From NCBI GenBank assembly GCA_030631665.1, contig DAOVKU010000003.1, positions 1 through 36,402 of the forward strand: a stretch of 36,402 bases of DNA, in the 5' to 3' direction. The stretch is from Candidatus Omnitrophota bacterium. GTDB lineage: Bacteria > Omnitrophota > Gorgyraeia > DAOVKU01. Position numbers and translations under genes: made by a program. Numbering within the stretch: the stretch's first letter is position 1; each line of letters begins with the position of its first letter. Below, in pieces: positions 1,845-21,303 of this stretch. The notes under the pieces are model-generated. The model was not told the origin of the DNA. It searched no databases and was given only the letters and a program-made list of their open reading frames with translations.

Positions 1845-2658
1845 CTTGAAATCTTTTATTTTTAAAATACAGGACGCTATTTGTAGCATCCTCTAATACT
1901 AAATCGAAATCGCGATCCATAAGAAACAGGGTGGAATTTTCTTTTGCTTTTCTATTGTGATATTCCAATACTATCCGCTTCGTAATTGACAACATTTTTG
2001 CTTCGGCCCCGCTCAGAACCTCATATTCTTCCCCTTCAACATCTATTTTTACGAGATCTATTTTTCCAATGCTCCTTTCGGCAATAAAGCTATCCAGGGT
2101 CACACAATCGACTTCGATAGATTTTTGCGCATTTACGTTTAATTCTTCTTCGTGCATAACCTTGCCCTCGCCGGTCATGGCGGCGGGAACCAAAAATCCC
2201 ATCTTCCCGTTTTTAGAAGATACGGCCTTTTGCATGGCGATAACATTATTAACTTTGTTTTCTTCCAGATTTTTCAAAAGGCGTGCAAAAACGGTAGGAT
2301 TAGGCTCAAAAGCCCATATTTTGCCTTTCTGCCCTACTCTTTTCGAACTCTTTACCGCATAAAGGCCTATATTGCTTCCGATATCGAGCACGGTATCGCC
2401 TGGTCTAGGCACGAAACCCTCTGCTTTTTCGTTGATGTTTTTAGCATATATCTGCACGTAAGTGCCCAATTCGCCAGAAGAAGCACCAGCCCAAAATATC
2501 ACGTCTTTAAAAACCATTCTGAATTCCCTGCCTTTTAAGTCAATCAAGTGAAGCCTGTTAAAGATATTTAAAAAAAGATAAGACAAAAAACCAATTTTAC
2601 CTTTAAGGCCTTTCCCAGCGAAAAAAAGTATTATAGTATTCTCTAGGTGATTAAGCAT
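1837..2658 (-). CDS. FkbM family SAM-dependent methyltransferase
   Basis: 273 residues. The SAM-binding motif LDIGSNIGLY is at about 91-100, an acidic FEPN motif at 117-120 contacts the ribose, and the family hallmark DLVKIDVEGEE is at about 201-211. FkbM-family enzymes O-methylate hydroxyl groups; in polysaccharide loci they usually methylate a sugar. The gene overlaps the preceding glycosyltransferase by 8 bp (2651-2658) and the following GT9 gene by 8 bp, so the three are probably translationally coupled. Methylation of the product of the neighbouring glycosyltransferases, possibly as a chain cap, is inferred from context. Confidence 0.9.
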   Translation of the reverse strand: MLNHLENTIILFFAGKGLKGKIGFLSYLFLNIFNRLHLIDLKGREFRMVFKDVIFWAGASSGELGTYVQIYAKNINEKAEGFVPRPGDTVLDIGSNIGLYAVKSSKRVGQKGKIWAFEPNPTVFARLLKNLEENKVNNVIAMQKAVSSKNGKMGFLVPAAMTGEGKVMHEEELNVNAQKSIEVDCVTLDSFIAERSIGKIDLVKIDVEGEEYEVLSGAEAKMLSITKRIVLEYHNRKAKENSTLFLMDRDFDLVLEDATNSVLYFKNKRFQDG

Positions 2659-3817
2659 TCGGTTGATTTTCCCTCAAAAGTTTAATATATAGCTCTTCGT
2701 ATCTCTTGGTAGTTGCGGTGATAGAAAAATTATTTTCGACGAATTTCCTAGCGTTCTCCGCTAGGGCATCTGAGTAATGCCTATCATTAACCAAATTCAA
2801 TATTGCCTTTTCTATCTCGGCTACATTCCTCGACTCAACTAATATCCCTGTCTTCCCGTGTTCAATAACTGTCGGGATTCCTCCGACATTACTGGCAACA
2901 ACGGGTTTTCCGGCAGCCATCGCCTCTAAAAGAGCTAATGGTAACCCCTCTGTCAGGGAAGGCATAACAAACACGTCTAAAACAGAGAAAATCTTATCTA
3001 CATCTTCTCGGTAACCGGTAAAGATAACCTTATCGCTTATATTCAATTCCTTAGCGTAATCGATAAGGTTATTCTTTACATCACCTTCACCGACGATGAC
3101 GAAACTAACATCGCGCTTCTTGACTTTTATTTTAGAAGCCGCTTCCAAAAGATAGGTAATGCCTTTCTCGCTGCTTAGACGCCCTACAGAGCCAATAACG
3201 AAGTCTTCCTTCTTAATACCGAGTTCCTTCCTCACCCCTTCCCTCTCCGCTTTCATATCAAAATGACTTACATCTATGCCGTTCTGAATAACCTCCAATT
3301 TTGAGGGATTAATTTTTCTCTTTACCAAATTGCCGTATATCTGCGACGAAACAGCTACTACCCTATCAAAAAATTTAAGGATGCTCGTGTCGATAAAATC
3401 ATAAAATTTAAGTTTAAGAGTATCCGGCCACCATCCATGGTATGTGCTTACTAACCTAACTTTTGTTAGTTTTGAAGTTAAAAAACCTATTACGTCTGCC
3501 TTGTAACCATGGCAATGAAGAATATCGATATTGTGCTCCCGCAATAGCTTCCTCAAGCGGAATACTGCGCATATACCAAACCGCCATTTTAGATAAATAA
3601 CCTCTGTAGCTATACCTGACTTTTTCGCTTCAACTATAAGCGGCGGCGGAGCATCTGCTCTTGGGTCTTTAAAACATATTAAAACACAATAGAATTTATC
3701 CTTATCCGCTTTCCGGACAAGCGCCAAAGCTACAGCCTCTCCGCCATAAATCTTATCGAGCCAGCCAGTCACTAAATGCATGACCCTTATTTTATTTTGC
3801 TGATTAACGTTTCCCAT
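2651..3817 (-). CDS. Glycosyltransferase family 4
   Basis: 388 residues with the two-domain GT-B fold. The N-terminal half begins with KIRVMHLVTGWLDKIYGGEA and contains the HCHGYKADVIG segment. The C-terminal half has the donor-phosphate residues R213 and K218 in GRLSSEKG, and the EX7E pair E290/E298 in PSLTEGLPLALLEAMAAGKP. All key residues are present, so it should be active as a retaining transferase that adds a sugar to a lipid-linked glycan. It starts 6 bp after the radical SAM gene ends and overlaps the FkbM gene by 8 bp. It is the closest visible relative of the decayed glycosyltransferase at 4879-5382. Donor and acceptor are unknown. Confidence 0.92.
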   Translation of the reverse strand: MGNVNQQNKIRVMHLVTGWLDKIYGGEAVALALVRKADKDKFYCVLICFKDPRADAPPPLIVEAKKSGIATEVIYLKWRFGICAVFRLRKLLREHNIDILHCHGYKADVIGFLTSKLTKVRLVSTYHGWWPDTLKLKFYDFIDTSILKFFDRVVAVSSQIYGNLVKRKINPSKLEVIQNGIDVSHFDMKAEREGVRKELGIKKEDFVIGSVGRLSSEKGITYLLEAASKIKVKKRDVSFVIVGEGDVKNNLIDYAKELNISDKVIFTGYREDVDKIFSVLDVFVMPSLTEGLPLALLEAMAAGKPVVASNVGGIPTVIEHGKTGILVESRNVAEIEKAILNLVNDRHYSDALAENARKFVENNFSITATTKRYEELYIKLLRENQPNA

Positions 3818-4915: not shown

Positions 4916-5382
4916 TTTGTAAGTCCCCCCTTCTTTATTGAAAATAATCGTTTTGTCACGACGGCTAACGGCAAACTCTCACTTAATGATGGTAAAACAA
5001 ATATATCCATGGCAGCAATAAAATCATGAACATCATGCCTGAAACCGGTAAAAATTACTCTTTTTTTAATTTTTAACTTGTTAGTCATTTCAATAAGCTT
5101 TTTTTGAAGCGGACCGCCGCCAGCAATCAATAAGACCACACTAAGAATATCTTTAATTGCCGCTAAAAGATATTTATATCCTTTTTCTTTACTAAGTCGG
5201 TCGGCTGTTCCCACTATTAGAGGAAGGCCTGATTTTCTAACTTTCTTGAAGCTAACAAGCCAGGATACAAATTTATTTTTATCTAAATATTTAAATAAAT
5301 TTAAAATTACTAAATCTCCACCGAAAGGACTTTCCAGGCGGCTACTGATTAAATGGGCTATTCTTATTTTTTCTACTATCAT
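4879..5382 (-). pseudogene. Decayed family 4 glycosyltransferase (internal deletion plus lost C-terminus)
   Basis: 167-codon open frame with a good ribosome site (AAGGA, 7 bp before ATG). Residues 5-57 align by eye with the N-terminus of the intact 388-residue glycosyltransferase at 2651-3817, then the frame jumps to the equivalent of its residues about 207-297. Roughly 145 residues of the acceptor domain are missing. After PSLSESLPLAVV (131-142) homology stops just before the second glutamate of the EX7E pair: E135 is kept but T143 stands where Glu should be. The remaining 25 residues are novel and run into the start of the radical SAM gene in another frame, overlapping it by 37 bp. A working transferase is very unlikely. 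It could still be translated as a fragment. Confidence 0.85.
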
Positions 5383-5400: not shown

Positions 5401-6783
5401 CTACGATTCGTCAGAAAATTTTTTCATAACGACAGCCAATGGCAAAATAATCCACAACATTGTTAAAAAAGCCTGTGTCAAAAAAACAGCACAAACTAAA
5501 TAACCAAGAAGCCCCAATCTTAAACTAAGAGCTAAGTCTGACAATAAAAAGTCCTTTTTTTTCTGAAAATTACTTCCTGCTTTTTTTAAATCCTGCCAGC
5601 TAAAAAACAAAAGCAAAAGAAAAAATATCAATCCAAAAATTCCTGTTTCAGCACCTATTTGCAAGTAAGCATTATGTGAAAATCGAGCAACGCGTGTTTT
5701 AATATCCGAAGCCGTAAAGGCTCTTTCTACATACTCATATTGAAATACGTTTAGACCTATACCTCTAAAGGGATGGTCTTTCATCATTTGCAAACCCACT
5801 TTCCAAATTTCAAGTCGACTATTAATAGATGGGTCGCTCAAATCAAAAACACTTTTGGCTCGAGCCCAATATTGCACAGGAATAAAAGGAACTATGCCTA
5901 ATAAAAATACCGATAATAGAACTACCGCAAGTATTTTCCTTTTATGCTTAAAACCAAACCACAAAACAGAACTAGCCAATACAAAAATTAAAGCAACCAT
6001 GCCTCCTCGAGAATATGTAAAGACTACATTTAATATGAGTAAAACAAAAATTAATATCAATAGTGTTCTAGTAATGACATTGCGGTAATTAAAAAACAAT
6101 GCAAATACTAAAGGTATTAAAATTACTAAATGCATAGCATAATCATTGGGATCAAAGGCTGTTCCTCTAATTCTTATAACACCTTCTCCGTAATCCACAC
6201 CGATTCCATGAGCATATTGATATATGCCTATCAGGCAAGCAGCTAGTCCTAAAATTACCAGTCCCCAAATTAATATTAAAAATTTTTTCTTAGTTTTGAC
6301 TAAGTTAACAACCAAAAAATAGAGAATTAAAAGCTTGATAAACTCTAAAAAACCGTAAAAAGAATAATCAAAATATCGAAGAGTGGAAATAAAAAGAGTT
6401 GTTCCAAAAAGGAAAATAATTATATTCTGTTTAGTTTTTACTATTTTAAAATCGCGATAAACAATAATATGAAACAGCCATATGAACAAAACTCCAAAGG
6501 CTAAATTTCTTGATAAATGAAGTGGCCCTAAAACATCCGCAAAAAACTCTACCGGATGAAGCAAGGAACCAATCAAAAAAGCTAAAAGTCCAAAATAAGG
6601 GTCAAAAAAGATAGCAACTAAAAACGCGAAAGAAAAAAAAGCTAAAAGCGCAAAATACCAAGGAATAAAAAGCACCGATAAACCTAACAAAAATGCCATT
6701 CCAATAATTGCAATTTTAATCAGTATTGGTAGTTCTATAATAGGGCGTTCTTCTAAATATGATTTATCTTTCTCTCTAATCAT
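5401..6783 (-). CDS. O-antigen ligase / polymerase family membrane protein
   Basis: 460 residues, strongly hydrophobic, with about ten to twelve membrane segments. The conserved periplasmic region is recognisable: NSRLEIWKVGLQMMKDHPFR, then GIGLNVFQYEY, then RFSHNAYLQIGAETGIFGLI, which is the Wzy_C/WaaL signature (PF04932 type). Such proteins either polymerise repeat units (Wzy) or ligate the finished glycan to an acceptor lipid (WaaL) on the periplasmic face; sequence alone does not separate the two. The start overlaps the upstream glycosyltransferase stop by 4 bp (ATGA), so they are coupled. As the only polymerase or ligase candidate in the cluster it probably defines the linkage of the surface polymer. 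Confidence 0.88.
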   Translation of the reverse strand: MIREKDKSYLEERPIIELPILIKIAIIGMAFLLGLSVLFIPWYFALLAFFSFAFLVAIFFDPYFGLLAFLIGSLLHPVEFFADVLGPLHLSRNLAFGVLFIWLFHIIVYRDFKIVKTKQNIIIFLFGTTLFISTLRYFDYSFYGFLEFIKLLILYFLVVNLVKTKKKFLILIWGLVILGLAACLIGIYQYAHGIGVDYGEGVIRIRGTAFDPNDYAMHLVILIPLVFALFFNYRNVITRTLLILIFVLLILNVVFTYSRGGMVALIFVLASSVLWFGFKHKRKILAVVLLSVFLLGIVPFIPVQYWARAKSVFDLSDPSINSRLEIWKVGLQMMKDHPFRGIGLNVFQYEYVERAFTASDIKTRVARFSHNAYLQIGAETGIFGLIFFLLLLFFSWQDLKKAGSNFQKKKDFLLSDLALSLRLGLLGYLVCAVFLTQAFLTMLWIILPLAVVMKKFSDES

Positions 6784-7958
6784 TCTTTTTTAAACTTTTC
6801 CTGGCTTTCAATATGATTTATTAACGTTCTGAATAAATTTCCCCAAGAATAATCTCTAACTACTTCTAATCGTTTCTCTCTCAAGCTTAACTGATTCTCA
6901 CCTAGTGCTTCATCTATTAAATTAATAAAATCTTCTTTGCTGTGTGCAAACATGATTATTCCCTCGAATTGTCTTATGGCTGGCATATCTACAGAAACAA
7001 CCGGTTTGCCTGCTGCTAAATACTCATATACTTTCAAAGGATTAACCCTTTTTGCTAACTCATTCAGTCTGAAAGGATTCAGACAAACATCTAAACCTTT
7101 CAGATAATTAGGCAGCACGCGAAGGTTTTTTCGTCCCAAAAAATATATATTCTTTGGCTCCTTTAATAAAGCCAATTTGTTCTGTGTCATAATAGGGCCT
7201 ATCAAAACTAATGACCACTCAGGTTTAGATTTAGCAATATAGAGAATTAAATCCAAATCAATCCAATCAGCAATTCCGCCTATATAACCAATTCTTGGCT
7301 GAGGTATTGCCTGAAGTTCGCTGGGTATGGCAGTTTCCTCTTCACCTGCCTTACTAAAATGTTTTATATCTACTCCGTTAGGAATAATAAAAATATTTTT
7401 ATTTAAATGCTTTTTATCGTCATATAACTCCTTAGTTGTCACAAAGACCATATCTACTTTTTTAATTAGCCTTATCTCCATTCTTCTTATCAATCGTTTG
7501 TTTACATTGGGATAGGCCGAATGCTCATCCACGCAATCATAAATTGCCAGTTTTTCAGAGAAGGCACCTATCAACTTATCTGAAGAAGGAGTGTATGTCC
7601 AAAAGATTGGGTTATTTAGAGTCAGTTTTCTCTGCGCGCTTTTAATTTCCTGTCTCAAAATTAATTGATTCCATAAAGAAATTATCTCAAAACGCCCAAA
7701 TGGAATTTTAACCGCAGGTGTCAAAATATATAAATTTTCTGAAACTTTCTTCAGTTTACTGAATGGATTTGATTTTGCTCTATTTAATGCTTCGCTAACT
7801 TTAGCATAAACAGACCTGCCACGAGCAAAACAAATAGGTTCGACATAGAGTACTTTGTTGCCCTCTTTCGCCAGCATATTCATAAAACGCTGTTTTCTGG
7901 TCCAAAGGTCATCCCAGCACATTGTAGATACACAAATTATATTTTCATTTTTTAACAT
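6780..7958 (-). CDS. Glycosyltransferase, GT-B fold (TuaH-like)
   Basis: 392 residues. The N-terminus (IICVSTMCWDDLWTRKQRFM, then NKVLYVEP) resembles a group of bacterial transferases that includes teichuronic acid TuaH. The middle has a YDCVDEHSAYP segment and the strand-loop IPNGVDIKHF. The C-terminal donor domain carries RIGYIGGIADWIDLDLI and the conserved NPLKVYEYLAAGKPVVS helix with its acidic residue. It overlaps the O-antigen ligase/polymerase by 4 bp. Upstream lies a 132-bp AT-rich gap, so this may begin a new translation unit. The sugar transferred is unknown. Confidence 0.85.
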   Translation of the reverse strand: MLKNENIICVSTMCWDDLWTRKQRFMNMLAKEGNKVLYVEPICFARGRSVYAKVSEALNRAKSNPFSKLKKVSENLYILTPAVKIPFGRFEIISLWNQLILRQEIKSAQRKLTLNNPIFWTYTPSSDKLIGAFSEKLAIYDCVDEHSAYPNVNKRLIRRMEIRLIKKVDMVFVTTKELYDDKKHLNKNIFIIPNGVDIKHFSKAGEEETAIPSELQAIPQPRIGYIGGIADWIDLDLILYIAKSKPEWSLVLIGPIMTQNKLALLKEPKNIYFLGRKNLRVLPNYLKGLDVCLNPFRLNELAKRVNPLKVYEYLAAGKPVVSVDMPAIRQFEGIIMFAHSKEDFINLIDEALGENQLSLREKRLEVVRDYSWGNLFRTLINHIESQEKFKKE

Positions 7959-8090: not shown

Positions 8091-9401
8091 TCATTTAGTC
8101 TGTAATTTTGACATTATTCTAAAATATACATCAGTATAAATTTTAAAATCACTCTTTTTTATCAATAGTGTATCAATTAAACTACTTCCTGAAATCTTCA
8201 AAAATGCCCTAAGGATTATGCCTGCTCCTACAAAATAGGCAATGCTAGAAGCAAAAGCTGCTCCACTAATACCCCATTTAGGAATAAGAAATAAATTTAG
8301 CATTATATTTATAACCAAGGATGCAAGTGCAGCATAAGTATTAATAATTGGCTTGCCCCTACCAATTATGTCGCTGGCCAATACCTTAGGGATACTAAAA
8401 ATCACTATACCTGGCAATAATATACATAGAGGCTTAACAGACGGGAGATATGCTCGTCCATATAAAGAAAAAATAAAAAATCTACTTAAAATAAAAAGAA
8501 CCAAGGCCATTCCTGTAGTAATAAAAAAAGTATGCCTACATATTACTGGAGTTAATTTATTAGCCTCTTTTGCGTCTAATGAAGATATCTTGGGCAACAA
8601 AACTATGGCCATTGTGCTCGAAATATGCCAAAGCATCTCGGCACCCACTACAGCAATAGAATAATATCCCAAATACATTGCTCCTAAAAAGTACATGACT
8701 AAAAACATATCTAACCGATAATTAAGGAATTGCGCAATATTACCAAGATGTCCTTTAATCCCAAAAACAAGTGAGTCTTTTAATAATTTAAAATTAAGGC
8801 TCATTTTTATTCTTATTAATTTATTAACCCAGAAAATAGAAATAAAACTTGTTAAAACTGCAGCTAATACATATGATAAAACAGCGCCAAATACACCTTG
8901 TCGTAAAATAATTAATGCTATTATGAGAAATCCGAGCAAAAAAGTAGTTTGTAGAATATCTAACAAATTATATCTTTTTATATTATTTTTACCTAATAAT
9001 ATATATTTAAAATATATTACAAGCAAACTGAATGGTATCGCGCAATGGGCAATAAATATATTTATAAAATTTATTTCTTTTAAAAAAAGAGGGTGAGTAT
9101 ACTTAATAAATATTAAAGCAAAAGTTGAAAGAAGAGTTCCTAAAAAGAAAGCTAAAATTAATGAATTTGAAGTAATATTAGATAATTTATATTTCCCTTT
9201 GCCGATAAAATATACATTTGCTGTCCCTACACCTAGGTTTCCCAAGTTTATTATTAAAAGAGGAATTAAAATAATAAATGAATATTCACCTTTACCTACT
9301 GGACCTAGTATTCGCGCTGTAATTATGCTTATAAAAACACTTATAATAAATAGTGCTATGCGTGCTGATAATGTTATAATGCTACTTTTAATTAGGCCCA
9401 A
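8091..9401 (-). CDS. Polysaccharide flippase (Wzx/MATE-like)
   Basis: 436 residues, almost entirely membrane segments (about twelve to fourteen), starting with the amphipathic and hydrophobic ALFIISVFISIITARILGP typical of oligosaccharide flippases of the MVF/MATE superfamily. Such proteins turn lipid-linked repeat units across the inner membrane. The start codon is TTG at 9401, supported by an AGGAG 7 bp upstream; the next ATG is far inside. The gene is one of the most AT-rich in the window, as is common for O-antigen flippases, which diverge quickly and are often transferred horizontally. It follows the methyltransferase after 26 bp. Confidence 0.88.
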   Translation of the reverse strand: MGLIKSSIITLSARIALFIISVFISIITARILGPVGKGEYSFIILIPLLIINLGNLGVGTANVYFIGKGKYKLSNITSNSLILAFFLGTLLSTFALIFIKYTHPLFLKEINFINIFIAHCAIPFSLLVIYFKYILLGKNNIKRYNLLDILQTTFLLGFLIIALIILRQGVFGAVLSYVLAAVLTSFISIFWVNKLIRIKMSLNFKLLKDSLVFGIKGHLGNIAQFLNYRLDMFLVMYFLGAMYLGYYSIAVVGAEMLWHISSTMAIVLLPKISSLDAKEANKLTPVICRHTFFITTGMALVLFILSRFFIFSLYGRAYLPSVKPLCILLPGIVIFSIPKVLASDIIGRGKPIINTYAALASLVINIMLNLFLIPKWGISGAAFASSIAYFVGAGIILRAFLKISGSSLIDTLLIKKSDFKIYTDVYFRIMSKLQTK

Positions 9402-9427: not shown

Positions 9428-10249
9428 TTATTTCTCACAGACAGCTAGTAAATCTAAAGAATTTCTTATATTTATCTTTGATACAGTGAAATCTTCCAAA
9501 TCAACATTAGAGAGAGGTGTTGATATGCCTATTATTTTTGAAATGCCTCTAGTTATCAACATTCTTATTTCTTTAGGAATTAAATTTTTAACTTGATAAA
9601 TAGTTAATTTTCTAAGCCTACGGATAAAGCTACGATATTTAAATCTAGACAATTCTTTCTTTTTTATTCTTGCGTTACCCTGGATACCATATAACTCAAC
9701 TGTATTAAAATATATTTGCAGTAATTTATGCAATTCTTTTACAGAAAATTCTTGGATATGAAATGGATTAAAGGGGACATCACCAAGAACTAGACGCGTT
9801 TCTTTGTTTGGTGTAGATATAATACAAAATCCACCAGGTTTTAATACCCGCTGGATTTCGGCTAAACATTTATTATAATCTCTTATATGTTCAATAGCCT
9901 GAAAAAAACAGACTACATCAAAAAAATTATTTGGAAAAGATAAATTTATCGCATCCATCTTCATAAATTCTATGTTATTTTTCTTATAATTAGACTTCGC
10001 ATGTTCTATTGTTTCCCCAGAAAAATCTATGCCAATAATTTTTTTCGCATACTTAGATAAATAATTTGAACCGTATCCTTCACCACATCCTATATCTAAG
10101 ACAACTTTATTTAAGACAAAGGATTTACTAAAATTATATGCTACTAACTGACGATAATAAGACTCTTGATATTTTTTAAGTCCTGGAACTACCCTTTCAT
10201 CGCCCCATTTGCTTGCTAATTGTTCTTTATAGTTATTTATTCTTTTCAT
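9428..10249 (-). CDS. Class I SAM-dependent methyltransferase
   Basis: 273 residues of the Methyltransf_11/25 type. The SAM-binding loop VVLDIGCGEGYGSNYL lies near residues 48-63, the acidic IIGIDFSGETIEHAK follows, then MDAINLSFPNNFFDVV and the post-motif QRVLKPGGFCIISTPN. The C-terminal 90 residues, basic and less conserved, probably carry acceptor specificity. ATGA overlap (4 bp) with the upstream glycosyltransferase indicates coupling. Methylation of a sugar in the same glycan is inferred from position; sequence gives no acceptor. Confidence 0.88.
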   Translation of the reverse strand: MKRINNYKEQLASKWGDERVVPGLKKYQESYYRQLVAYNFSKSFVLNKVVLDIGCGEGYGSNYLSKYAKKIIGIDFSGETIEHAKSNYKKNNIEFMKMDAINLSFPNNFFDVVCFFQAIEHIRDYNKCLAEIQRVLKPGGFCIISTPNKETRLVLGDVPFNPFHIQEFSVKELHKLLQIYFNTVELYGIQGNARIKKKELSRFKYRSFIRRLRKLTIYQVKNLIPKEIRMLITRGISKIIGISTPLSNVDLEDFTVSKINIRNSLDLLAVCEK

Positions 10250-11340
10250 TTATAACGTTCCTTTTTATTTAATAATGCCTTATATAAGCTTTCCATTTTC
10301 CCTGCATTCTTATTCCAATCATAACTTTGAATTACAAATTCCCTGCCTTTCTTTCCCATTTCCAATCGCCTCTCTTCATTTTGCAATAAAACCATCAACG
10401 CATCAGCTATTGCTTGCGGGTTTTTGGGTTCGATCAATATCCCTGTTTCTCCATCCCAAACCGCTTCTGATACTCCTCCGACTCTAGATGCCACCACAGG
10501 GATTTCCATGGCTTGAGCCTCAATAGCTGCAACGCCAAAAGATTCTGATTCTGATATAGATGGCATTACAAAAATATCTATTTGAGAAAGATAAGTAGGC
10601 ACTTGGGAATATGGAACTTCTTCTTGAAATGTTACAATATTCTCAATTTTTAATTTTTTAACCAGTTCAATTAAATAATCTCTTTGATAACCACTTCCCA
10701 CAATTAACACTTTTATATTTTTGTATTGATTATATACTTGGGGAATAGCCTTAATTAAATACTCGACCCCATATTTTGGCAGTAGATGTTTTATCATGCC
10801 AATTGTAATTCTTTTAGATTTAATTTTAGATTGAGGGCTAAATTGATTTATATCTACCCCAAATGGAACAATTTCAATTTTTCTCCAATCTAAGTTAGCA
10901 TATTTCGCAGTAGCTTTAGCTAAAAATTTAGTTGTGGAAGTAACTATAGTCGCTTTTTTTAATATAAATTTTTTACTAAACTGCTGCCTAAATGACTCAA
11001 CACTCTCATTTAAAAAACCAAGAATGTCACTTCCCCAAGTCGATACTATAAAAGGTTTAAAATCGCATAAAATTGGAGCTAACCCAAATGGTTCTAAGTA
11101 ATGCATGTGAATTATATCGGGCCTTATTCTTCTAATAAAACCCTTGAACCATATAATATTCTTTATAGTATTAAAATAAGGAATTTTTAACTTTAATATA
11201 TTGAGTTGATGAATAGTTGCGCCATTGATTTTCGCTTGTCCATTTGAAATTATATGTATTTCGTGTCCTTTTTTTGCAAAATACTCTATCCATCTTTGCG
11301 TATGAATATATCTTGCATCCGAAAGAAAACAAATTCTCAT
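10246..11340 (-). CDS. Glycosyltransferase family 4
   Basis: 364 residues, GT-B fold. N-terminal MRICFLSDARYIHTQRW, the central DIIHMHYLEPFGLAPI and STWGSDI segments, and the C-terminal EX7E pair E266/E274 in SESESFGVAAIEAQAM are all present, so it should be active. The intact EX7E contrasts with the decayed paralogue at 4879-5382. The start lies 13 bp after the UDP-GlcNAc 2-epimerase stop. It belongs to the AT-rich core of the polysaccharide cluster. Donor sugar unknown. Confidence 0.92.
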   Translation of the reverse strand: MRICFLSDARYIHTQRWIEYFAKKGHEIHIISNGQAKINGATIHQLNILKLKIPYFNTIKNIIWFKGFIRRIRPDIIHMHYLEPFGLAPILCDFKPFIVSTWGSDILGFLNESVESFRQQFSKKFILKKATIVTSTTKFLAKATAKYANLDWRKIEIVPFGVDINQFSPQSKIKSKRITIGMIKHLLPKYGVEYLIKAIPQVYNQYKNIKVLIVGSGYQRDYLIELVKKLKIENIVTFQEEVPYSQVPTYLSQIDIFVMPSISESESFGVAAIEAQAMEIPVVASRVGGVSEAVWDGETGILIEPKNPQAIADALMVLLQNEERRLEMGKKGREFVIQSYDWNKNAGKMESLYKALLNKKERYK

Positions 11341-11353
11341 ACTTTTCGCCTTT

Positions 11354-12451
11354 CTAACGCAAATCTTTACTTAATAAAATATTTGCGATTCTTTCTGCTG
11401 CCTTGCCATCCCAAAATTTAGGAATTTTGCCTTTTTTTTCTTTGCCCTTGATTATTTTTAAGCTCTCTTTAATAATTTTTTCTTTATTACTTCCGACTAT
11501 TATATTAGTGCCTTCTGTTACTGTTATGGGCCTTTCGGTTGTTTCGCGAAGAGTAATGCAGGGAATTTTTAGTATTGTTGTCTCTTCTTGAATTCCTCCG
11601 GAATCTGTTAAAACAAATTTTGATTCAGACATCAATTTTAAAAAATCTAGATATCCTAATGCGTCTACTATTTTAAAATTCTTCATTTTTCTAATTTTAT
11701 TATTCAAGCCAAATTCTTCTATTCTTTTCTTAGTCCGCGGGTGAATCGGAAAAACAATTTTTATTTTTTTCTGTATTTCCCCAAAAGCATCTAAAATTCT
11801 AACAAAAACTTTTTTATCATCTACATTGCTCGGCCTATGCAGTGTTAAAGCAGCGTAATCTTTAGGTTGTAAGTTTAGTTTTTTAAGTATGCCAGAATGA
11901 GAAGCTTTCTTAATATGTTTTAGAAGGGTGTCTATCATAACATTGCCGACAAAATGGATTTTATCCTTTGAGATGCCTTCTTTTAGTAAATTCTTATTAG
12001 CATCATGGCAAGTGGTAAATAAATAATCTGAAATGGAATCAGTCAAAATTCTATTTATTTCTTCAGGCATGGTGCGGTCAAAACTTCTCAAACCCGCTTC
12101 AATATGAGCAACAGGTATAAAAAATTTAACTGCTGTCAAAGTACAGGCAATTGTAGAATTAACATCACCTACTACAACGACCAAATCCGGCTTTTCTTTA
12201 AGTAATACTTTTTCAAACTTAACCATAATTTTAGCCGTCTGAACAGCATGAGAAGCTGACCCTACGCCTAAATAAATATCAGGAGGTGGCAATTTTAAAT
12301 CGTCAAAAAATAATTTGGACATTTCTTTATCATAATGCTGCCCTGTATGAACAAGAATAGGGGTAAGCTTAGAACGTTTCTTCATCTCATCAATGATAGG
12401 CGCTATTTTCATAAAATTTGGTCTTGCACCTACAACATTTAATATTTTCAT
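11354..12451 (-). CDS. wecB: UDP-N-acetylglucosamine 2-epimerase (non-hydrolysing)
   Basis: 365 residues from the ATG at 12451. The enzyme interconverts UDP-GlcNAc and UDP-ManNAc, supplying ManNAc or its uronic acid to surface polymers. Family motifs are clear: VVGARPNFMKIAPI at the start, HTGQHYDKEM, VVVVGDVNSTIA, HIEAGLRSFDRTMPEEINR, LTLHRPSNVD and LTDSGGIQEETTILKIPC. An in-frame ATG at 12487 would add 12 residues, but GGAG placed 9 bp before 12451 and the conserved KILNVVGARP beginning fix the shorter form. No ManNAc dehydrogenase (WecC) is in the window, so the product is either ManNAc itself or is oxidised by an enzyme encoded elsewhere. First biosynthetic gene after the inserted nucleotidyltransferase module. 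Confidence 0.95.
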   Translation of the reverse strand: MKILNVVGARPNFMKIAPIIDEMKKRSKLTPILVHTGQHYDKEMSKLFFDDLKLPPPDIYLGVGSASHAVQTAKIMVKFEKVLLKEKPDLVVVVGDVNSTIACTLTAVKFFIPVAHIEAGLRSFDRTMPEEINRILTDSISDYLFTTCHDANKNLLKEGISKDKIHFVGNVMIDTLLKHIKKASHSGILKKLNLQPKDYAALTLHRPSNVDDKKVFVRILDAFGEIQKKIKIVFPIHPRTKKRIEEFGLNNKIRKMKNFKIVDALGYLDFLKLMSESKFVLTDSGGIQEETTILKIPCITLRETTERPITVTEGTNIIVGSNKEKIIKESLKIIKGKEKKGKIPKFWDGKAAERIANILLSKDLR

Positions 12452-12466
12452 ATTCTTTTTCTCCAA

Positions 12467-12485
12467 AATTAAAAAATCAAAACCC
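12467..12485. repeat. Direct repeat, left copy, flanking the nucleotidyltransferase module
   Basis: AATTAAAAAATCAAAACCC on the plus strand. It matches the right copy at 13331-13349 in 18 of 19 positions and has the same orientation. It lies just upstream of the wecB ribosome site. The right copy is the T-tract and 3-prime arm of a terminator; the left copy retains the T-rich tract but no good stem. Confidence 0.7.
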
Positions 12486-12519
12486 ACTTAGAAAATTTTA
12501 AAGTTGTAACATTAGACTG

Positions 12520-13330: not shown

Positions 13331-13349
13331 AATTAAAAAACCAAAACCC
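13331..13349. repeat. Direct repeat, right copy, flanking the nucleotidyltransferase module
   Basis: AATTAAAAAACCAAAACCC on the plus strand, differing from 12467-12485 only at one T/C position. The two copies are 864 bp apart and enclose exactly the two-gene module. Confidence 0.7.
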
Positions 13350-13364
13350 GCGGGAGGATTTTGG
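13331..13364 (-). terminator. Rho-independent terminator of the secretin-Wzz-kinase operon
   Basis: On the minus strand the arms CCAAAATCC and GGGTTTTGG (9 pairs including one T-G wobble) enclose a 6-base loop TCCCGC and are followed at once by TTTTTTAATT. It begins 33 bp after the stop of the tyrosine kinase gene. The next ATG (13310) is only 20 bp beyond the T-tract, so the nucleotidyltransferase pair must use read-through or a promoter placed before or inside this hairpin. Confidence 0.85.
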
Positions 13365-13397
13365 CATATACTAGTACACTGATACTCCTATGCACAA

Positions 13398-14213
13398 TTA
13401 TAAGTGCTTATGGATATATTCGGGTATATGGTATTGAATATTAGTTAAAGTGATACCTAATAGCTTAGCACCAACTGCTTTTAAAAGGGATTCTGTTCTG
13501 CTAATTACTTCCCTGCGGGTTCGCTCTGCTTTGACTACCAGCAACACTCCATCGCATACCTTGCTTATTATCCTGGGGTCCGCGTAGGGGATAACTGCCG
13601 GGGTATCTAAAATTATATAATCAAAACGCTTTTTTAAATTATCGAGGGTTTCTTTGAGTTTTGGAGAACTTAATAATTCAGTAGGGCTTGCTTCTACTTC
13701 ACCGGCGCAGATACAAAATAGATTATGTATGCCTGTTTCAATAATTACTTCATCTGTTGTGGCAGTTCCGGCTAATACATCACTAAGGCCCTTTTGCGTG
13801 CTTAGGCCTAAATATGAATCGAGGGCCGGCCTTCTGAGATTACAATCTATAATTAAAACTTTTCTACCTAAATTCTGAGATAAAACTATAGCCAAGTTAA
13901 GAGCGGTTATGGTCTTGCCTTCATGTAAAGAAGAACTGGTGATAACCAGAGTCTTTAAGGCGGCTGCCTCCGGCAAAGATAAGAGCTGTGTCATCAGATT
14001 GCGATACTGGTCTGCTACACGAGAGCGGGGGTCTGCGTAGGCCACAAGCCGGGCGTCAATTCCTTCCCTGGCCGCTTCAGGCCTTTTGGGCACAGTAGGC
14101 GCGACGTATTCGGTAACAGGAGGAAGAGATGGCGGTGCAGCTTTTTTGGAATTCTTATCGCGCTCCTCATGCGCTTTTCTTAGGGCTTCTGAGAGTTTGT
14201 TTTTTTCGTCCAT
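13398..14213 (-). CDS. Polysaccharide-associated tyrosine kinase (CpsD/CapB, BY-kinase family)
   Basis: 271 residues, cytoplasmic, no membrane segment; the partner Wzz protein supplies the membrane part. The family EQYRxL motif appears as DQYRNLMTQL (69-78). The Walker A region is SSSLHEGKT (93-101, K100), where the usual GEGKT has His instead of the first Gly. Walker A-prime is LIIDCNLRRPA with D123, but Asn125 replaces the second Asp. Walker B is IILDTPA with D203. Only two tyrosines (Y261, Y266) remain at the C-terminus in place of a Tyr-rich tail. BY-kinases autophosphorylate and cycle with the chain-length protein to control export. The start follows the Wzz stop with no gap. Activity may be altered, given the two nucleotide-site changes. 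Confidence 0.88.
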   Translation of the reverse strand: MDEKNKLSEALRKAHEERDKNSKKAAPPSLPPVTEYVAPTVPKRPEAAREGIDARLVAYADPRSRVADQYRNLMTQLLSLPEAAALKTLVITSSSLHEGKTITALNLAIVLSQNLGRKVLIIDCNLRRPALDSYLGLSTQKGLSDVLAGTATTDEVIIETGIHNLFCICAGEVEASPTELLSSPKLKETLDNLKKRFDYIILDTPAVIPYADPRIISKVCDGVLLVVKAERTRREVISRTESLLKAVGAKLLGITLTNIQYHIPEYIHKHL

Positions 14214-15818
14214 TTATTGTTTTTCCATCGTTTGCTGGCGAATAAGTTTTTCTTTAATTTTTTGTTCCTGGGTGTTGGAATAAATAGCGGCAAATATTAT
14301 TAAAATTATCAAAAATATTATAAAAATCCATGTCAATCTGGCGTTGCGCACCTTTTGTCGGCGAATTTCCTGGGCGCTGACTATCCTGGAAATAGAACCG
14401 AGAACAGGTAAGTCAATGTATTGCTTAACATCTTCCACTCCTCTAAAAGAATGGTCTGCAAACTCAGCTAAGAAAACACAACCAAAGCCCGACAAAATGC
14501 CTATAACAAAAGCTACAATGGAGGTAAGCAGTCTCTTTGGCTTTGATGGTTTTAGGGGCAGGCGGCCTTCTTCTAAAATTTCATAACGGGTGCCTTTATC
14601 TTTTAACTCTACGGCTGTCAGCCGTGATTCCTCAACTTTCATTTTAAGCATTTCATAAATATTCTGGTTTACACGCACATCTCGGGTTAATTCAGCATAC
14701 ACGCGTTCCTGCTCAGGCAAACTTCCTATTTTAGCTTCATACTCATCCACCAGTCCTTGAAGGCGCTTTCTTCTAGCTTCTAATTCATCAACTTTCTGCC
14801 TGGCATCTTTCTGCCTTTGCTCCAGTCTTTGATAAAACAAAGGAGCGGTTAAGGCTGTGTCGGCATCTATAACTTTTTTGCTCTCGAGGCGAAGCTTTTC
14901 TCTTACCTCCTCAATTTTGGCTATAATAAGAGAAATTTCCGGGTCTTCCGGGTCTTCAACCATTTTGGTATCAAGTTCCGCCTGAAGATTTGAAAGCTCA
15001 ACGGTTAATCTGTTTACATCCGGATTAAGGACTATTAAATCATGTGAAATTATAACCGGTTCATGTCCGGATAATTGCCTGTTTATCCTGCTAAGTTCTT
15101 CTCTGGCCTCTTTAAGAGCCAGCTCTATGGAAGTATGAGAAGTCTGATAGCTGATTAAAAACTGCGTATTCATATCAAGGGCCATGCCGGGTAATTGAAG
15201 GGCTTGTTTTTCTCTAAATTCATAAAGCGTTCTTTCTGCTTTTTCAAGCTGTTTTTTATAAACCTTGGCCTGTTCCTCCGCAAACTTCACGCCTATTAAG
15301 GCCGAGTCGGTCTTTTTCTGTAAGTTTTCTTTAATAAAAAGGTTGATTAAAGTATTAACTATCTTCTGTGCCATTACAGGATCTTTGTCTTCATAGGAAA
15401 TTTGAAAAACATCAGACGCCCTCATAACAACTCCGGTTCTTTTTCTAATGCCCATGATAAGTTTTTCATAAGCTGCCTGGTCGGTAATACCCTTGCTAAT
15501 CCCAAGGGTGTTGACCAAATTGATTAATTGAGGGTAAGATAAGATTTGTTCGGTGAGTGTCCTTAATTTTTCGACCAGAGTGTCTTCTTTAGGCTGTAAT
15601 ATTAATCTTTCCTGATAGGGAATAAGCGGGTTAATAATTTTTTCTTCTTCAACTAAAATTAAAATTGATGATTCATAGTATCTGGTAAGAAAAGAACTGC
15701 CTATGGTAGCAGTGGTAAAAACAACTAAAAAGGGAATAAGAAAAAACCATTTGCGATGAAAGATTATGCGCAAATAGTCTTTTAAGGATGCTTGTATCTG
15801 GTCGGTGGAAATGGCCAT
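14214..15818 (-). CDS. Wzz/GumC-type polysaccharide chain-length co-polymerase
   Basis: 534 residues. Membrane segments at about 24-45 (WFFLIPFLVVFTTATIGSSF) and about 495-513 (WIFIIFLIILIIFAAIY) bracket a large periplasmic part with long coiled coil (about 170-400). The GNVR-like motif LPEQERVYAELTRDVRVNQN lies before the second membrane segment. Such proteins set chain length and bridge the inner-membrane machinery to the outer-membrane exporter. The separate kinase follows directly, matching the split Wzz plus BY-kinase arrangement. The gene begins 7 bp after the secretin stop, which ties secretin and chain-length protein into one operon. It resembles exosortase-associated EPS chain-length proteins (inference by eye). 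Confidence 0.93.
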   Translation of the reverse strand: MAISTDQIQASLKDYLRIIFHRKWFFLIPFLVVFTTATIGSSFLTRYYESSILILVEEEKIINPLIPYQERLILQPKEDTLVEKLRTLTEQILSYPQLINLVNTLGISKGITDQAAYEKLIMGIRKRTGVVMRASDVFQISYEDKDPVMAQKIVNTLINLFIKENLQKKTDSALIGVKFAEEQAKVYKKQLEKAERTLYEFREKQALQLPGMALDMNTQFLISYQTSHTSIELALKEAREELSRINRQLSGHEPVIISHDLIVLNPDVNRLTVELSNLQAELDTKMVEDPEDPEISLIIAKIEEVREKLRLESKKVIDADTALTAPLFYQRLEQRQKDARQKVDELEARRKRLQGLVDEYEAKIGSLPEQERVYAELTRDVRVNQNIYEMLKMKVEESRLTAVELKDKGTRYEILEEGRLPLKPSKPKRLLTSIVAFVIGILSGFGCVFLAEFADHSFRGVEDVKQYIDLPVLGSISRIVSAQEIRRQKVRNARLTWIFIIFLIILIIFAAIYSNTQEQKIKEKLIRQQTMEKQ

Positions 15819-15825
15819 AGTTTAA

Positions 15826-17373
15826 TCAAAAACTCTCCTGCTCAAAATCAGGCATCAACGGCTCTCGCAAAAGGCCGGTTGCCATTCGCTTCTCCGTGCC
15901 TGTCCTATCCGTAAAGGTGTGCCATTCCCCTTGAGAAACAATCTGGCGGTTTCTATCGGTTAAAATATGGGGGGTAATAAAAACAATTAATTCCTGCTTA
16001 ATAGTTTCCTCTTCCTTGCTTCTGAACAATAAACCTAAAAGCGGTATATCTCCCAGGAAAGGAATTTTTCTCAAAACCGTCTCTTGTTTATTTTTAATCA
16101 AACCACCCAGGACAATGGTCTCGCCGTCTCTAACCATCATAGTGGTGTCGGCTTGAGTGGTATCAATCGCAACCGCATTATCAACGTCGGGCAGGCGCCT
16201 GGCCTTGCTTACTTCCGGATGAATGACCATGGTTATATAACCATTTTCACCGATTTGCGGAGTAACTATTAGCTTAATGCCTACATCTATATATTCGGTT
16301 GATTCAGTGACGAAACCGGTTACCGGATCTTCGCTGGTTATAATATAGGGCTCACTGGAACCAACTAAGATATTGGCTTCTTCATTATCCAAAACACAAA
16401 TGCGGGGGGCAGATAAAACCTCTGCGTCGCCGCTTGTCTCAAGGGCTTCAAGTATTATGTTATACTCATCGGAAGTTAAAGTGCCGATATTGAGTATAGT
16501 GCCCTTAGCTAAATCTACACTCAAATCTTCCTTTAAATCCATGCCTACGCGTTGAGGACTTCTGGTTGTGTTGTCATATTCCCATCTTATGCCCAGCTGG
16601 AGAGTTTTATCTAAGTTCACTTCCATCAATCTGGCTTCTATTAAAACCTGCTTATGCTGAACATCCCAGCCGCTTATTAATTCATCTGCATCTTTAAGAA
16701 CTACAGGTGTGGCCTTAACTACTACGCTGTTTGTTCTCTCATCAACAAAAACCTGTCCTTTTTCCGGGGGAATAAGCCGTGTCAATCTTTCCATCAAGTC
16801 AGAGGCCCGGGCAAATTCAAGCTTATACTTTTTAAGTACTGTTTTTTGATCCAGTAACTTAAGGGCTCTTTCCATTTCCTTTATCTTTGTCGGTGTATCG
16901 GTGATAATGACCTGATTGCTTTTGGGGCTCAGTTCAATTTTGCCTCTGGAGGTTTTCATTGAAAGCAATGCCCGGCGTAAATCCATCACATCTGTATGGT
17001 CGAGTGTAAAAACTTTTGTTATCAAATTGGCAAATCGCTCTTCCTGCTGGGCGTCAGCGTATGTATAAATAGTTATGATGTCGCCGTCTTTGGAATACAT
17101 GTAATTGTTGATTTTAAGAATTGAGTCCAGGGCTCTTTCTAAGGAAACATTATCAAGTTTTACGGAGACAGTACCGCTGACATTCTGGGAAGTAACGATA
17201 TTAAGGCCGCTCTGGGAAGCAATCATCTTAAGAACCTGGTCTATGGGGGCATTTTCTACATCAATGGAGACAAGGGACTCCTGTGAAAAAGATAGCTTAT
17301 TGGACTCAAACGCCAGCAAAGCCGCTATTATTAAAAAAGACAAAAATAACTTTTTAGGGAAACTTTTACGCAA
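15826..17373 (-). CDS. Secretin, outer-membrane channel of the GspD/PilQ superfamily
   Basis: 515 residues. A signal peptide (about 1-31, FLSFLIIAALLAFES core) is followed by an STN/N0-like domain (about 36-104, DVENAPIDQVLKMIASQSGL), two secretin_N (KH-like) modules (about 116-175 and 178-235), and the C-terminal secretin beta-barrel domain (about 250-482, VLIEARLMEVNLDKTLQLGI to VFITPHILTD). It forms a multimeric gate in the outer membrane. The start codon is TTG, supported by AAAGGAG 6 bp upstream. A strong promoter lies at 17466-17494. No type II secretion or type IV pilus genes are in the window; instead Wzz and tyrosine kinase genes follow within 7 bp, so a role in polysaccharide export is inferred. 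A T2SS or pilus secretin placed here by chance is the alternative. Confidence 0.92.
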   Translation of the reverse strand: MRKSFPKKLFLSFLIIAALLAFESNKLSFSQESLVSIDVENAPIDQVLKMIASQSGLNIVTSQNVSGTVSVKLDNVSLERALDSILKINNYMYSKDGDIITIYTYADAQQEERFANLITKVFTLDHTDVMDLRRALLSMKTSRGKIELSPKSNQVIITDTPTKIKEMERALKLLDQKTVLKKYKLEFARASDLMERLTRLIPPEKGQVFVDERTNSVVVKATPVVLKDADELISGWDVQHKQVLIEARLMEVNLDKTLQLGIRWEYDNTTRSPQRVGMDLKEDLSVDLAKGTILNIGTLTSDEYNIILEALETSGDAEVLSAPRICVLDNEEANILVGSSEPYIITSEDPVTGFVTESTEYIDVGIKLIVTPQIGENGYITMVIHPEVSKARRLPDVDNAVAIDTTQADTTMMVRDGETIVLGGLIKNKQETVLRKIPFLGDIPLLGLLFRSKEEETIKQELIVFITPHILTDRNRQIVSQGEWHTFTDRTGTEKRMATGLLREPLMPDFEQESF

Positions 17374-17399
17374 ACTTTTCTCCTTTTAATGAGTACATC

Positions 17400-17425
17400 A
17401 CTTAGCGAATGCAATGAAGCTAAGT
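17400..17425 (-). other. Inverted repeat in the secretin mRNA leader
   Basis: Arms ACTTAGC (17400-17406) and GCTAAGT (17419-17425) with a 12-base loop; after one mismatch CAT and ATG extend the pairing outward. It lies between the predicted transcription start (about 17459) and the ribosome site. It may be a regulator site or a leader hairpin; no known motif is recognised. Confidence 0.4.
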
Positions 17426-17465
17426 TATGTCTTCATTTGATGTTCTAAAAATTTCTATTACTAAA

Positions 17466-17494
17466 TTTATACCATATAAACAAAGGTTTGTCAA
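17466..17494 (-). promoter_or_regulatory. Sigma70-type promoter of the secretin-Wzz-kinase operon
   Basis: Minus strand TTGACA (17489-17494), 17-bp spacer, TATAAA (17466-17471). Both boxes are near consensus with ideal spacing, about 93 bp before the secretin TTG start. This gives a leader of roughly 85 bases. Confidence 0.8.
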
Positions 17495-17529
17495 CTTCAA
17501 TAGAGCGACGGAAACAGTTCACAGCCACA

Positions 17530-17551
17530 TTCTGCCTGCCAGCAGGCAGAA
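17530..17551. repeat. Perfect palindrome (REP-like hairpin)
   Basis: TTCTGCCTGC and GCAGGCAGAA are exact complements around a 2-base centre. There is no T-tract on either side, so it is not a simple terminator. The core TGCCTGC/GCAGGCA recurs in the larger hairpin at 25005-25049. It lies between the cyclase 3-prime end and the secretin promoter. Confidence 0.65.
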
Positions 17552-17592
17552 GTCGGCAGTCCACAGAAAAATAAAAAACTGCTGTGGGGTTA

Positions 17593-19590
17593 TTAGGCCT
17601 GGCAGGTTGCGTTTTTGCCCTCTTCTTTAGCTTGATAAAGGGCTGTGTCTACTTTTTTGAGCAATTCTGATTTAGATGTGGCCGAGGTAGGATAATTTGC
17701 TACACCTAAACTAACGGTTAATTTTATAGGTTCGTCTGTTGAAGAAGAAAAATCATAATTTTTCACCACACGCCTCATTCTTTCAGCAAGATAAAAGGTT
17801 CCGTCTTTATCTGTTTCAGGTAAAAGAATCATAAATTCTTCTCCGCCGCATCTGGCTACAACATCGACATTGCGGCAGATTTCCTTTAAAATTGAACTCA
17901 ACTCTTTCAAGACAATATCTCCCTGCGGGTGACCATGGGTATCGTTTATTTTCTTAAAGCCGTCTATATCCAGCATTATAAACCCTAAAGGTTCCTGATA
18001 TCTTTCGGCTCTTTTTAATTCTTTATCAATTTGCTCTTTTAGGTAACGATAACCGTACAGACCGGTTAAACCATCTCTATTTGAAAGTTCTTTTATTCTT
18101 TTGTGGAGAGCGGCGTTGTTAATGGCCGGGATAGAACGCTGAGCAACAATGGAAAATAGCTTAAGGTCTTCTTCCGCGAAAGCATCCTTTTTTGAATGGC
18201 TCATAGCCAACAAGCCCATAACCTTATCCGCATTATGGAGCAGTTCCGCCTGAAAAGAGCTTACTATGTCTTCTTCTTTAAAGCCTTCGGTGACAATGGC
18301 CGGACCGTCGAAACGGTTAAGGGTAACCTTATCTTTTGAAAGCATCTTATGAGTAAGTTTATTGAATGAGTCAATAATCTTTAATTTAAACTTTTTGACT
18401 TCGGCCTCCGTGGCCGGATATTTAATGCTTATAATAAGTTCTCCCTGAGATTTCTCGTCAACTAATAAAAGGCCGCAGAAATGAAAATCAACTAATTGTT
18501 CAACTATTTCGATAACGGCATTTATGGTCTGGCGATAGTTAAGATCGGCGGTTACAATTTTGTTTACCTCATCGGAAATAGTGGTTTCATAAAGTTCTTT
18601 GTCAAGAAATTGGTTTGCTTCTATTAAAATTTTATTTGCTCCCTCTAATTTTTTCAGCCGCTTCTCGGTCCCATCAAGCCTTGCGCAAAGTTTGGAGCTT
18701 TGAAAGCCAAAAGAAATTTGATTGACTAAAATCATAAGCAGGTTTAAATCGTCTGTGTTGTAGGCCTCTTTGTTAATCTTGTTGTTGATGTTGATAACAC
18801 CCATGGTATCCGCAAATTTCACGGGTACCGAGAGAAAAGACTTGGTGTAATATTTATCGTTGTTTTCTTTATAAAAACGGCCATCCTTTTCTATGTCACA
18901 GACAAGTAAAGGATAATTCTGCTGAGCCACCCATCCGGAGATACCCTCCCCAAATCTAATTTTTGTATCTAAAACTATATTCTCATTTAATCCGGTAGCG
19001 GCTTTGATAATAAGAACATTTGAATCTTTATCTGCTAACATCAAAGAGCCGAGTTCAGATTTAAGTATAACTGTCATTGCTTCAATTAGCTGCTGAAAAA
19101 TTTTCTGAACAACAAGAGAATTTAAATCCGAACTTTCCTGATAAGCCCGGGTTAAATTATTTATAATTTCATTAAATTTTTTAGTTTTATCTAAAAAACT
19201 GCTAAAATTTATATTCTTTGAAAAATGAGAGATCAAGTCTTTTAATTGCTCGCCTATATTCTCTTTCTCAAGCGGCTTTAAGAGATAATCATCTGCGCCG
19301 GCCTTTATGCTCCAGAATTTCAATCTATCTTTTGGTTTGTCTGTAAGAATAATGATGGGAATATCGCGATATTCTTCTTTATTTTTCAAGAGTTTACAAA
19401 TCTGATAATCACTGATATCGCCTATGGCCGGATTTAGAAAAATCAGCTGAGGTTTGACCTTATAGACAGTTTCCAACCCTTCCAGGCCGCTTGAAACAGA
19501 AATGGTTTCAAAACCCAACCCTTCCAGGCCTTTGTTTAGAAGATTAACGGTATCAATATCGTTTTCGAAAATTACAGCTTTACTCTTCAT
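17593..19590 (-). CDS. Diguanylate cyclase with REC, two GAF and GGDEF domains
   Basis: 665 residues. Domains in order: receiver-like (1-122), a linker helix, GAF1 (about 150-300), GAF2 (about 345-495) and GGDEF (about 500-662). The catalytic motif GGEEF is at 582-586 and the inhibitory I-site RxxD (R573-N-V-D576) lies exactly five residues before it, so it should make c-di-GMP from two GTP with product inhibition. In the receiver the phosphoacceptor Asp is replaced by Asn53 (IFLNPAIGD) and one acidic-pocket residue is Asn10, while T83 and K105 are kept; phosphorylation is therefore unlikely. GAF domains probably sense a small ligand or redox state. The gene stands alone with its own promoter beside the polysaccharide export operon, a common c-di-GMP target (inference). 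Confidence 0.93.
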   Translation of the reverse strand: MKSKAVIFENDIDTVNLLNKGLEGLGFETISVSSGLEGLETVYKVKPQLIFLNPAIGDISDYQICKLLKNKEEYRDIPIIILTDKPKDRLKFWSIKAGADDYLLKPLEKENIGEQLKDLISHFSKNINFSSFLDKTKKFNEIINNLTRAYQESSDLNSLVVQKIFQQLIEAMTVILKSELGSLMLADKDSNVLIIKAATGLNENIVLDTKIRFGEGISGWVAQQNYPLLVCDIEKDGRFYKENNDKYYTKSFLSVPVKFADTMGVININNKINKEAYNTDDLNLLMILVNQISFGFQSSKLCARLDGTEKRLKKLEGANKILIEANQFLDKELYETTISDEVNKIVTADLNYRQTINAVIEIVEQLVDFHFCGLLLVDEKSQGELIISIKYPATEAEVKKFKLKIIDSFNKLTHKMLSKDKVTLNRFDGPAIVTEGFKEEDIVSSFQAELLHNADKVMGLLAMSHSKKDAFAEEDLKLFSIVAQRSIPAINNAALHKRIKELSNRDGLTGLYGYRYLKEQIDKELKRAERYQEPLGFIMLDIDGFKKINDTHGHPQGDIVLKELSSILKEICRNVDVVARCGGEEFMILLPETDKDGTFYLAERMRRVVKNYDFSSSTDEPIKLTVSLGVANYPTSATSKSELLKKVDTALYQAKEEGKNATCQA

Positions 19591-20664: not shown

Positions 20665-21303
20665 TCAACTTCTTTTTCTTTTGATGAAAGCCATTAGGCC
20701 CACTAAGCCGGAACCTAAAAGAAGCAGTGTGCTCGGTTCAGGAACGGGAACTGAATCCGCATAAGCATCATCGAAATAAGCTGCTCCCGTGAAAGGACCC
20801 TCGCCCCATGTCTCAAGAAGGACGGTATACTTAACATAATTCGTCCCTGTTGGTGCAACAGCACTATACTGAAGAGCCTCCCAACCACTTGTGGCCGCAG
20901 ACATTGAAGTCTTTACTGCTGAGCCAATGGTAACATCAGGCGCACTTTCAAATGCTATTTCCAAAGTGGCCAAGGCGTTACCTAACGCTATCGGTATATT
21001 TACCGGCTGATAGGCATATACTGTATCATTGGCTGCAAAAGGTTGTCTCTGGCCCCATCCGCCCCATCCAGAACCTGTGGCCTGTGTCTTTCCGGAATAT
21101 GAACCACTTTTTACAATAGTTGATTCTTTGCTGCCGGTTATATCCGGGTCGCTAAACATGTGCCACCAGTCTGCCGGAACCTCTTCTCCGCCGTACATTA
21201 CCCAAGTTTCAAACCCTGCATTGCTAAGCAGGTTTGCCTGGGCTATGGATGGCAGAGCCATAACTGCTGCTAAAGCTACTGCGCATAGAAGTTTTGCTTT
21301 CAT
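20665..21303 (-). CDS. PEP-CTERM sorting domain protein with a CBM-like ectodomain
   Basis: 212 residues. Signal peptide 1-23 (LLCAVALAAVMALPSIAQA), then a beta-sandwich ectodomain (about 24-185) that opens with NLLSNAGFETW and closes with GAAYFDDAYADS, the pattern of CBM4/9 or galactose-binding-like modules. The C-terminus is a textbook exosortase signal: VPEPSTLLLLGSGLVG, a hydrophobic stretch and the basic tail KRKRS. Exosortases cut such proteins and pass them to the cell surface in bacteria that make extracellular polysaccharide. No exosortase gene is in the window. The gene stands alone with promoter, two operators and terminator. Binding to the EPS made by the neighbouring cluster is inferred, not shown. 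Confidence 0.9.
   Translation of the reverse strand: MKAKLLCAVALAAVMALPSIAQANLLSNAGFETWVMYGGEEVPADWWHMFSDPDITGSKESTIVKSGSYSGKTQATGSGWGGWGQRQPFAANDTVYAYQPVNIPIALGNALATLEIAFESAPDVTIGSAVKTSMSAATSGWEALQYSAVAPTGTNYVKYTVLLETWGEGPFTGAAYFDDAYADSVPVPEPSTLLLLGSGLVGLMAFIKRKRS

Follow-up and report, generated by a model that had tools for sequence, protein, structure and literature searches.

Through which channel does a surface glycan cross the outer membrane when the gene in the place of Wza, directly ahead of a polysaccharide co-polymerase and a tyrosine kinase, encodes a secretin? The question is raised by a window of 36,402 bp (the whole stretch of DNA analysed here, contig C84) from an Omnitrophota metagenome-assembled genome (MAG) of 1.53 Mb, which comprises 128 contigs and is 93% complete and 6% contaminated. 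Three polysaccharide routes across the outer membrane were described in 2022, namely OPX pores, synthase-linked barrels and OPX/barrel composites (PMC9601211), and secretins are mentioned neither there nor in the companion paper (PMC9603273). Among open-licence papers, our search for a secretin in conjunction with Wzz, Wza or an exosortase found no such system, and in the Wza literature examined secretins are either absent or confined to the reference list.

Secretin, Wzz and BY-kinase genes form one transcription unit

Three genes lie head to tail on the minus strand of the window and encode, in this order, a GspD-type secretin of 515 aa (15826..17373), a Wzz-type polysaccharide co-polymerase (PCP) of 534 aa without a fused kinase (14214..15818), and a BY-kinase, or cytoplasmic tyrosine autokinase, of 271 aa (13398..14213). 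The open reading frames bear out the tight spacing described in an earlier note on this DNA, with intergenic gaps of 7 bp (secretin-Wzz) and 0 bp (Wzz-kinase), and both transcription signals proposed there are found. Upstream on the same strand, a sigma70-type promoter, TTGACA-N17-TATAAA (17466..17494, the -35 element starting at 17494), is near-consensus at 11 of 12 positions; when the 219-bp intergenic stretch that holds it is shuffled 2000 times, an equally good minus-strand site arises in only 0.45% of cases. A standard promoter scan misses this TATAAA site, since it accepts nothing but T as the final -10 base. Downstream, a strong intrinsic terminator is predicted from its fold, a minus-strand hairpin (13340..13365) followed by six T residues, with the 68-nt stretch folding at -17.8 kcal/mol (z -2.4).

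The three-gene unit proposed in the note stands for the window, but in most relatives a diguanylate cyclase gene precedes the secretin gene as the first of the operon. In the window this REC-GAF-GAF-GGDEF protein, assigned from its domains, is encoded next upstream of the secretin gene (17593..19590, minus strand), and the 219 bp between the two (17374-17592), which carry the promoter, are absent from the relatives. All f5 and f13 relatives whose contig reaches the cyclase show a cyclase-secretin gap of -86 to +13 bp, an overlap or near-zero distance, so that the operon there very probably starts with the cyclase gene; family f34 has secretin, Wzz and kinase without the GGDEF gene. The GGEEF/GGDEF and RxxD motifs of the cyclase are intact; of nine cyclase sequences compared, eight lack the usual phospho-acceptor aspartate in the receiver domain, seven of these having asparagine there. 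Also within the 219-bp stretch is the palindrome CTGCCTGCTGGCAGGCAG (17532-17549), which, with one mismatch allowed, occurs at three places in the genome, the other two being C49:13157 and C106:11884.

The module secretin is related to the GspD of type II secretion

Pfam and NCBIfam scores agree with the domain reading of all three proteins given in the earlier note. The secretin, further assigned by PDB sequence matches to GspD/PilQ and by its position in the tree, combines a Sec-type signal sequence, devoid of a lipobox, with an N0-N1-N2-secretin barrel layout (STN, 50.9 bits; two Secretin_N stretches; Secretin, 161.6 bits), and its gene has a TTG start and an AGGAG ribosome site. On the GspD model TIGR02517 it scores 275 bits against a cut-off of 351, under which the true GspD of the same genome also falls (245 bits); its predicted structure has low confidence (pLDDT 63). 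The layout is that of the GspD of type II secretion systems (T2SS), and the module secretin is 51% identical to the genome's own T2SS GspD (contig C90) and 32% identical to its own PilQ (contig C41). In a 40-sequence tree, all 14 module secretins group as a single clade (98/97) adjoining a T2SS GspD group, with the PilQ of type IV pili (T4P) elsewhere. On these sequence comparisons, the module secretin and the T2SS GspD of this genome are paralogues, and the simplest history would be one duplication of a T2SS gspD, captured in the Wza position before the families split and co-inherited since.

The same paralogy lends support to an unlikely alternative, in which the secretin exports proteins (PEP-CTERM or glycan-bound ones, for example) by a reduced T2SS-like route co-expressed with the glycan genes, perhaps borrowing T2SS inner-membrane parts in trans, and the glycan exits otherwise. 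The surroundings of the secretin argue against it, as no GspC, GspE, GspF, GspG-M or pseudopilin gene lies beside it in the window, and the T2SS clusters own a GspD. The full T2SS set on C90 includes that GspD and the PilMNOPQ genes on C41 include their own PilQ; PilMNOP genes are likewise missing beside the module secretin, and the secretin clades are separate. A stray secretin from an incomplete T2SS or pilus, which the earlier note had regarded as fatal to its reading, is thus rejected, since both clusters hold their own. The protein-export alternative is further weakened by the N1 and N2 domains, which have diverged from the T2SS copy (40-43% identity in module secretins versus T2SS GspD, compared with 60% in the barrel) and are well kept among module secretins (61-63%). 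This divergence with a kept barrel would fit a new periplasmic partner, a pattern that is suggestive only. Among sites separating module secretins from T2SS GspD, one alone passed the filter (129 V/A) and is uninformative.

Another secretin arrangement was encountered at L010:2050-4747, where a tandem pair of short, divergent secretins shares one operon. It is conserved in three genomes (L010, L136 and L139), and in L136 and L139 PilM-like and PilQ-like genes stand upstream of the tandem.

Wzz and kinase resemble partners of Wza

The Wzz protein matches the Pfam models Wzz (26.3 bits) and GNVR (44.7 bits) and reaches 264.6 bits on TIGR03007, under the cut-off of 278.9. The solved fold nearest to its AlphaFold model (pLDDT 70) is the Wzc of the Wza-Wzc complex, which we count in favour of glycan export by the module. 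Module Wzz proteins form a single clade (SH-aLRT 100) apart from Wza-linked Wzz, and the secretin and Wzz trees give the same f5, f13 and f34 subgroups. A longer periplasmic loop was considered as a hallmark of the secretin-type Wzz and rejected, some Wza-linked Wzz being equally long.

The kinase passes the TIGR01007 cut-off (156.2 bits against 108), falls under that of TIGR03018 (167 bits against 230.7), and shows the Walker-type motifs EGKT and IDCN in the alignment. Its C-terminal tail is conserved as IxYHIPEYIHRHL, a Y-x-I-P-x-Y-type motif, in place of a tyrosine cluster, so that its regulation may differ from that of Escherichia coli Wzc.

Secretin and Wza alternate upstream of Wzz

Comparison with related genomes, on which the earlier note had made its proposal depend, shows that the secretin-Wzz-kinase order is kept in about 20 genomes from at least four families. 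A contig scan with the window secretin as sole query returned Omnitrophota only and provided eight MAGs, seven of which have the order GGDEF-secretin-Wzz-kinase; the eighth contig begins inside the secretin gene, and two contigs in this set end before or inside the kinase gene. Further genomes came from Wzz searches of 236 phylum genomes and 384 class genomes. Among the 384 class genomes, the 16 best secretin matches (633 bits or more) each lie directly upstream of a Wzz, which in G017 is matched only as a 72-aa fragment. Across loci the secretin-Wzz gap ranges from -17 to 52 bp, and chance neighbourhood is rejected because the order and the short gaps recur in different families.

A survey of 39 Omnitrophota Wzz loci found the gene directly upstream of Wzz to be a secretin in 17 and Wza in 19, with the position off the contig in the remaining three; no third kind of gene occurs among the 36 loci whose upstream gene is readable. 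That the secretin occupies the Wza slot without exception is a further argument against protein export.

As a separate observation, the Wza-linked Wzz loci (L044-L049, L051-L054, L058-L061) mostly carry an ExeA-like ATPase gene between Wzz and kinase, and the one tested product (L077) scores 311.5 bits on TIGR03015; secretin-linked Wzz loci are devoid of this gene.

Wza is encoded elsewhere in the genome

The earlier note had found no Wza-like gene in the window, and this is correct, the genome's sole Poly_export match lying at C54:8402-8623. Its suggestion that the secretin stands in for Wza is strongly supported, on comparative grounds, by the conserved order, the alternation of the two genes, the single clade and the possession of separate secretins by the T2SS and T4P, but the absence of Wza is true of the locus and not of the cell. 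The note would have abandoned its reading had a Wza gene been accompanied by an unconserved gene order; Wza is present, but the order is conserved. We count the presence of Wza in this genome and of a Poly_export gene in 12 of the 14 additional genomes examined (13 of the 14 bear the module, the gene upstream of Wzz being off its contig in G215) against export through the secretin.

The same distribution speaks for a second alternative, in which the glycan exits via a Wza/OPX encoded elsewhere (the C54 protein in this genome) and the secretin would be accessory, for instance a wall-spanning scaffold sharing the operon. We judge this improbable, because the C54 Wza gene stands in another operon and is followed directly by a Wzz and a kinase gene of its own, a trio that is syntenic in G114 (52, 49 and 64% identity); because no Poly_export gene was found in the module genomes G237 and G239, though both may be incomplete; and because all other sampled Wzz with a readable upstream gene have Wza there. 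The synteny in G114 also makes it unlikely that the C54 Wza is a contaminant, despite the contamination level of the MAG. Where contexts were read, most Poly_export genes of the relatives likewise come with their own kinase or a fused PCP-kinase, and usually with their own Wzz.

A third arrangement, to which we accord very little probability, would make the secretin the barrel partner of a short OPX, forming a composite translocon like Myxococcus EpsY/EpsX with a secretin as its barrel. With 260 aa and one SLBB, the C54 Wza is indeed a short one, and translocons composed of an OPX and a barrel have precedents (PMC9601211). No OPX gene, however, lies in or near the module, and the short OPX of some relatives is accompanied by its own nearby BBP2_2 barrel gene. 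EpsY/EpsX nonetheless offers a parallel as a non-Wza barrel serving a Wzx/Wzy pathway, with the difference that it pairs an 18-strand barrel with a short OPX, whereas the module has a secretin and no OPX.

The BY-kinase of the C54 operon (L007:5549-6421) has an N-terminal MshE-type c-di-GMP-binding domain (NF053729, 46.5 bits; cut-off 38), as an observation in its own right. Its homologue in G114 is 64% identical, and such a fusion of a c-di-GMP receptor to a BY-kinase may be uncommon.

The module lies in a glycan locus with PEP-CTERM traits

Downstream of the kinase, on the same strand, the window encodes a UDP-GlcNAc 2-epimerase (WecB, 11354..12487; Epimerase_2, 384 bits; an 86% identical homologue in L030), a GT4-type glycosyltransferase (10246..11340), a Wzx-like flippase (8091..9401; Polysacc_synt in Pfam), a TuaH-like glycosyltransferase supported by Pfam and NCBIfam (6780..7958), a Wzy_C polymerase/ligase related to XrtA-type O-ligases (5401..6783; TIGR03097), whose homologue lies downstream of the module in relatives, and a glycosyltransferase (2651..3817) whose homologues occur in the clusters of relatives. 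Most relatives read that far have glycan genes downstream of the kinase, often with a Wzy_C/O-ligase relative. At 4879-5382 the window also holds a 167-aa glycosyltransferase in which an N-terminal part seems to be joined to a C-terminal part, a gene that has probably decayed through internal deletion.

Upstream on the minus strand lies the gene of a PEP-CTERM protein (20665..21303; PEP-CTERM, 30.4 bits), a homologue of which precedes the module in L030; the protein is likely an exosortase substrate. The exosortase itself is encoded away from the glycan locus, on C93 (228 bits; 193 bits on the XrtA model against 208), in a stretch (L132:9946-14512) that combines an XrtA-like exosortase, EpsI and PEP-CTERM genes. 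The nearby PEP-CTERM gene and the exosortase in the genome favour protein export through the secretin, and so does the fact that, to our knowledge, the route of PEP-CTERM proteins across the outer membrane is still an open question. The locus as a whole resembles XrtA/PEP-CTERM exopolysaccharide loci, in that the module Wzz and kinase and the O-ligase match XrtA models, but the module scores fall under the curated cut-offs, and neither a TIGR03027 Wza nor a TIGR03015 ATPase is present.

A proposed model for glycan export through a secretin

With its PCP, BY-kinase, Wzx-like and Wzy-like genes, its operon order and the place of its channel gene, the locus shares the plan of the Wza-Wzc/Wzz-BY-kinase systems of capsule and exopolysaccharide export, from which it differs in that the channel gene encodes a secretin and not an OPX/Poly_export protein. 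From T2SS GspD the module secretin is set apart by the lack of T2SS neighbours, the diverged N1/N2 domains and the constant Wzz neighbour. The reading towards which we lean, with modest confidence, is that these genes encode the apparatus by which a Wzx/Wzy-type surface glycan is exported across the envelope, with the secretin replacing Wza at the outer membrane; we judge passage of the glycan through the secretin somewhat more probable than not. Glycosyltransferases would build the glycan, and its lipid-linked units would be flipped and polymerised by the downstream-encoded Wzx-like and Wzy-like proteins. Phosphorylation by the BY-kinase would drive the cycling of the Wzz oligomer, which would set chain length and present the chain; the long helical periplasmic domain of Wzz would dock on the ring formed by the secretin N-domains, and the secretin gate would then open and let the polymer leave through the barrel. 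In addition, c-di-GMP from the operon's diguanylate cyclase may switch export. Two points count against this mechanism: the module encodes no gate-opening piston, and we know of no secretin that exports a Wzx/Wzy polysaccharide.

We see about even chances that an ancestor shared by several Omnitrophota families duplicated a T2SS secretin and in a single event put it in the place of Wza atop the PCP/BY-kinase pair, which would make this the first glycan-moving secretin system beside those serving proteins, pili and phage. The modified T4P, or junctional pore complex, of cyanobacteria is a secretin-bearing machine tied to slime secretion in titles cited by PMC12288463; it is a pilus system with PilMNOQ, whereas the module has no pilus genes.

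The module provides a concrete gene set for testing the mutual recognition of a PCP and an outer-membrane channel, and lets one ask how a secretin gate opens without a pilus or pseudopilus. If glycan export through the secretin is borne out, it would follow that the PCP/kinase unit can work with a channel from an unrelated family and that secretins carry a wider range of cargo than is known so far. Overall, the conserved presence of a secretin in the Wza slot suggests a so far undescribed polysaccharide exit route, which would add to those by which bacterial polysaccharides leave across the outer membrane.
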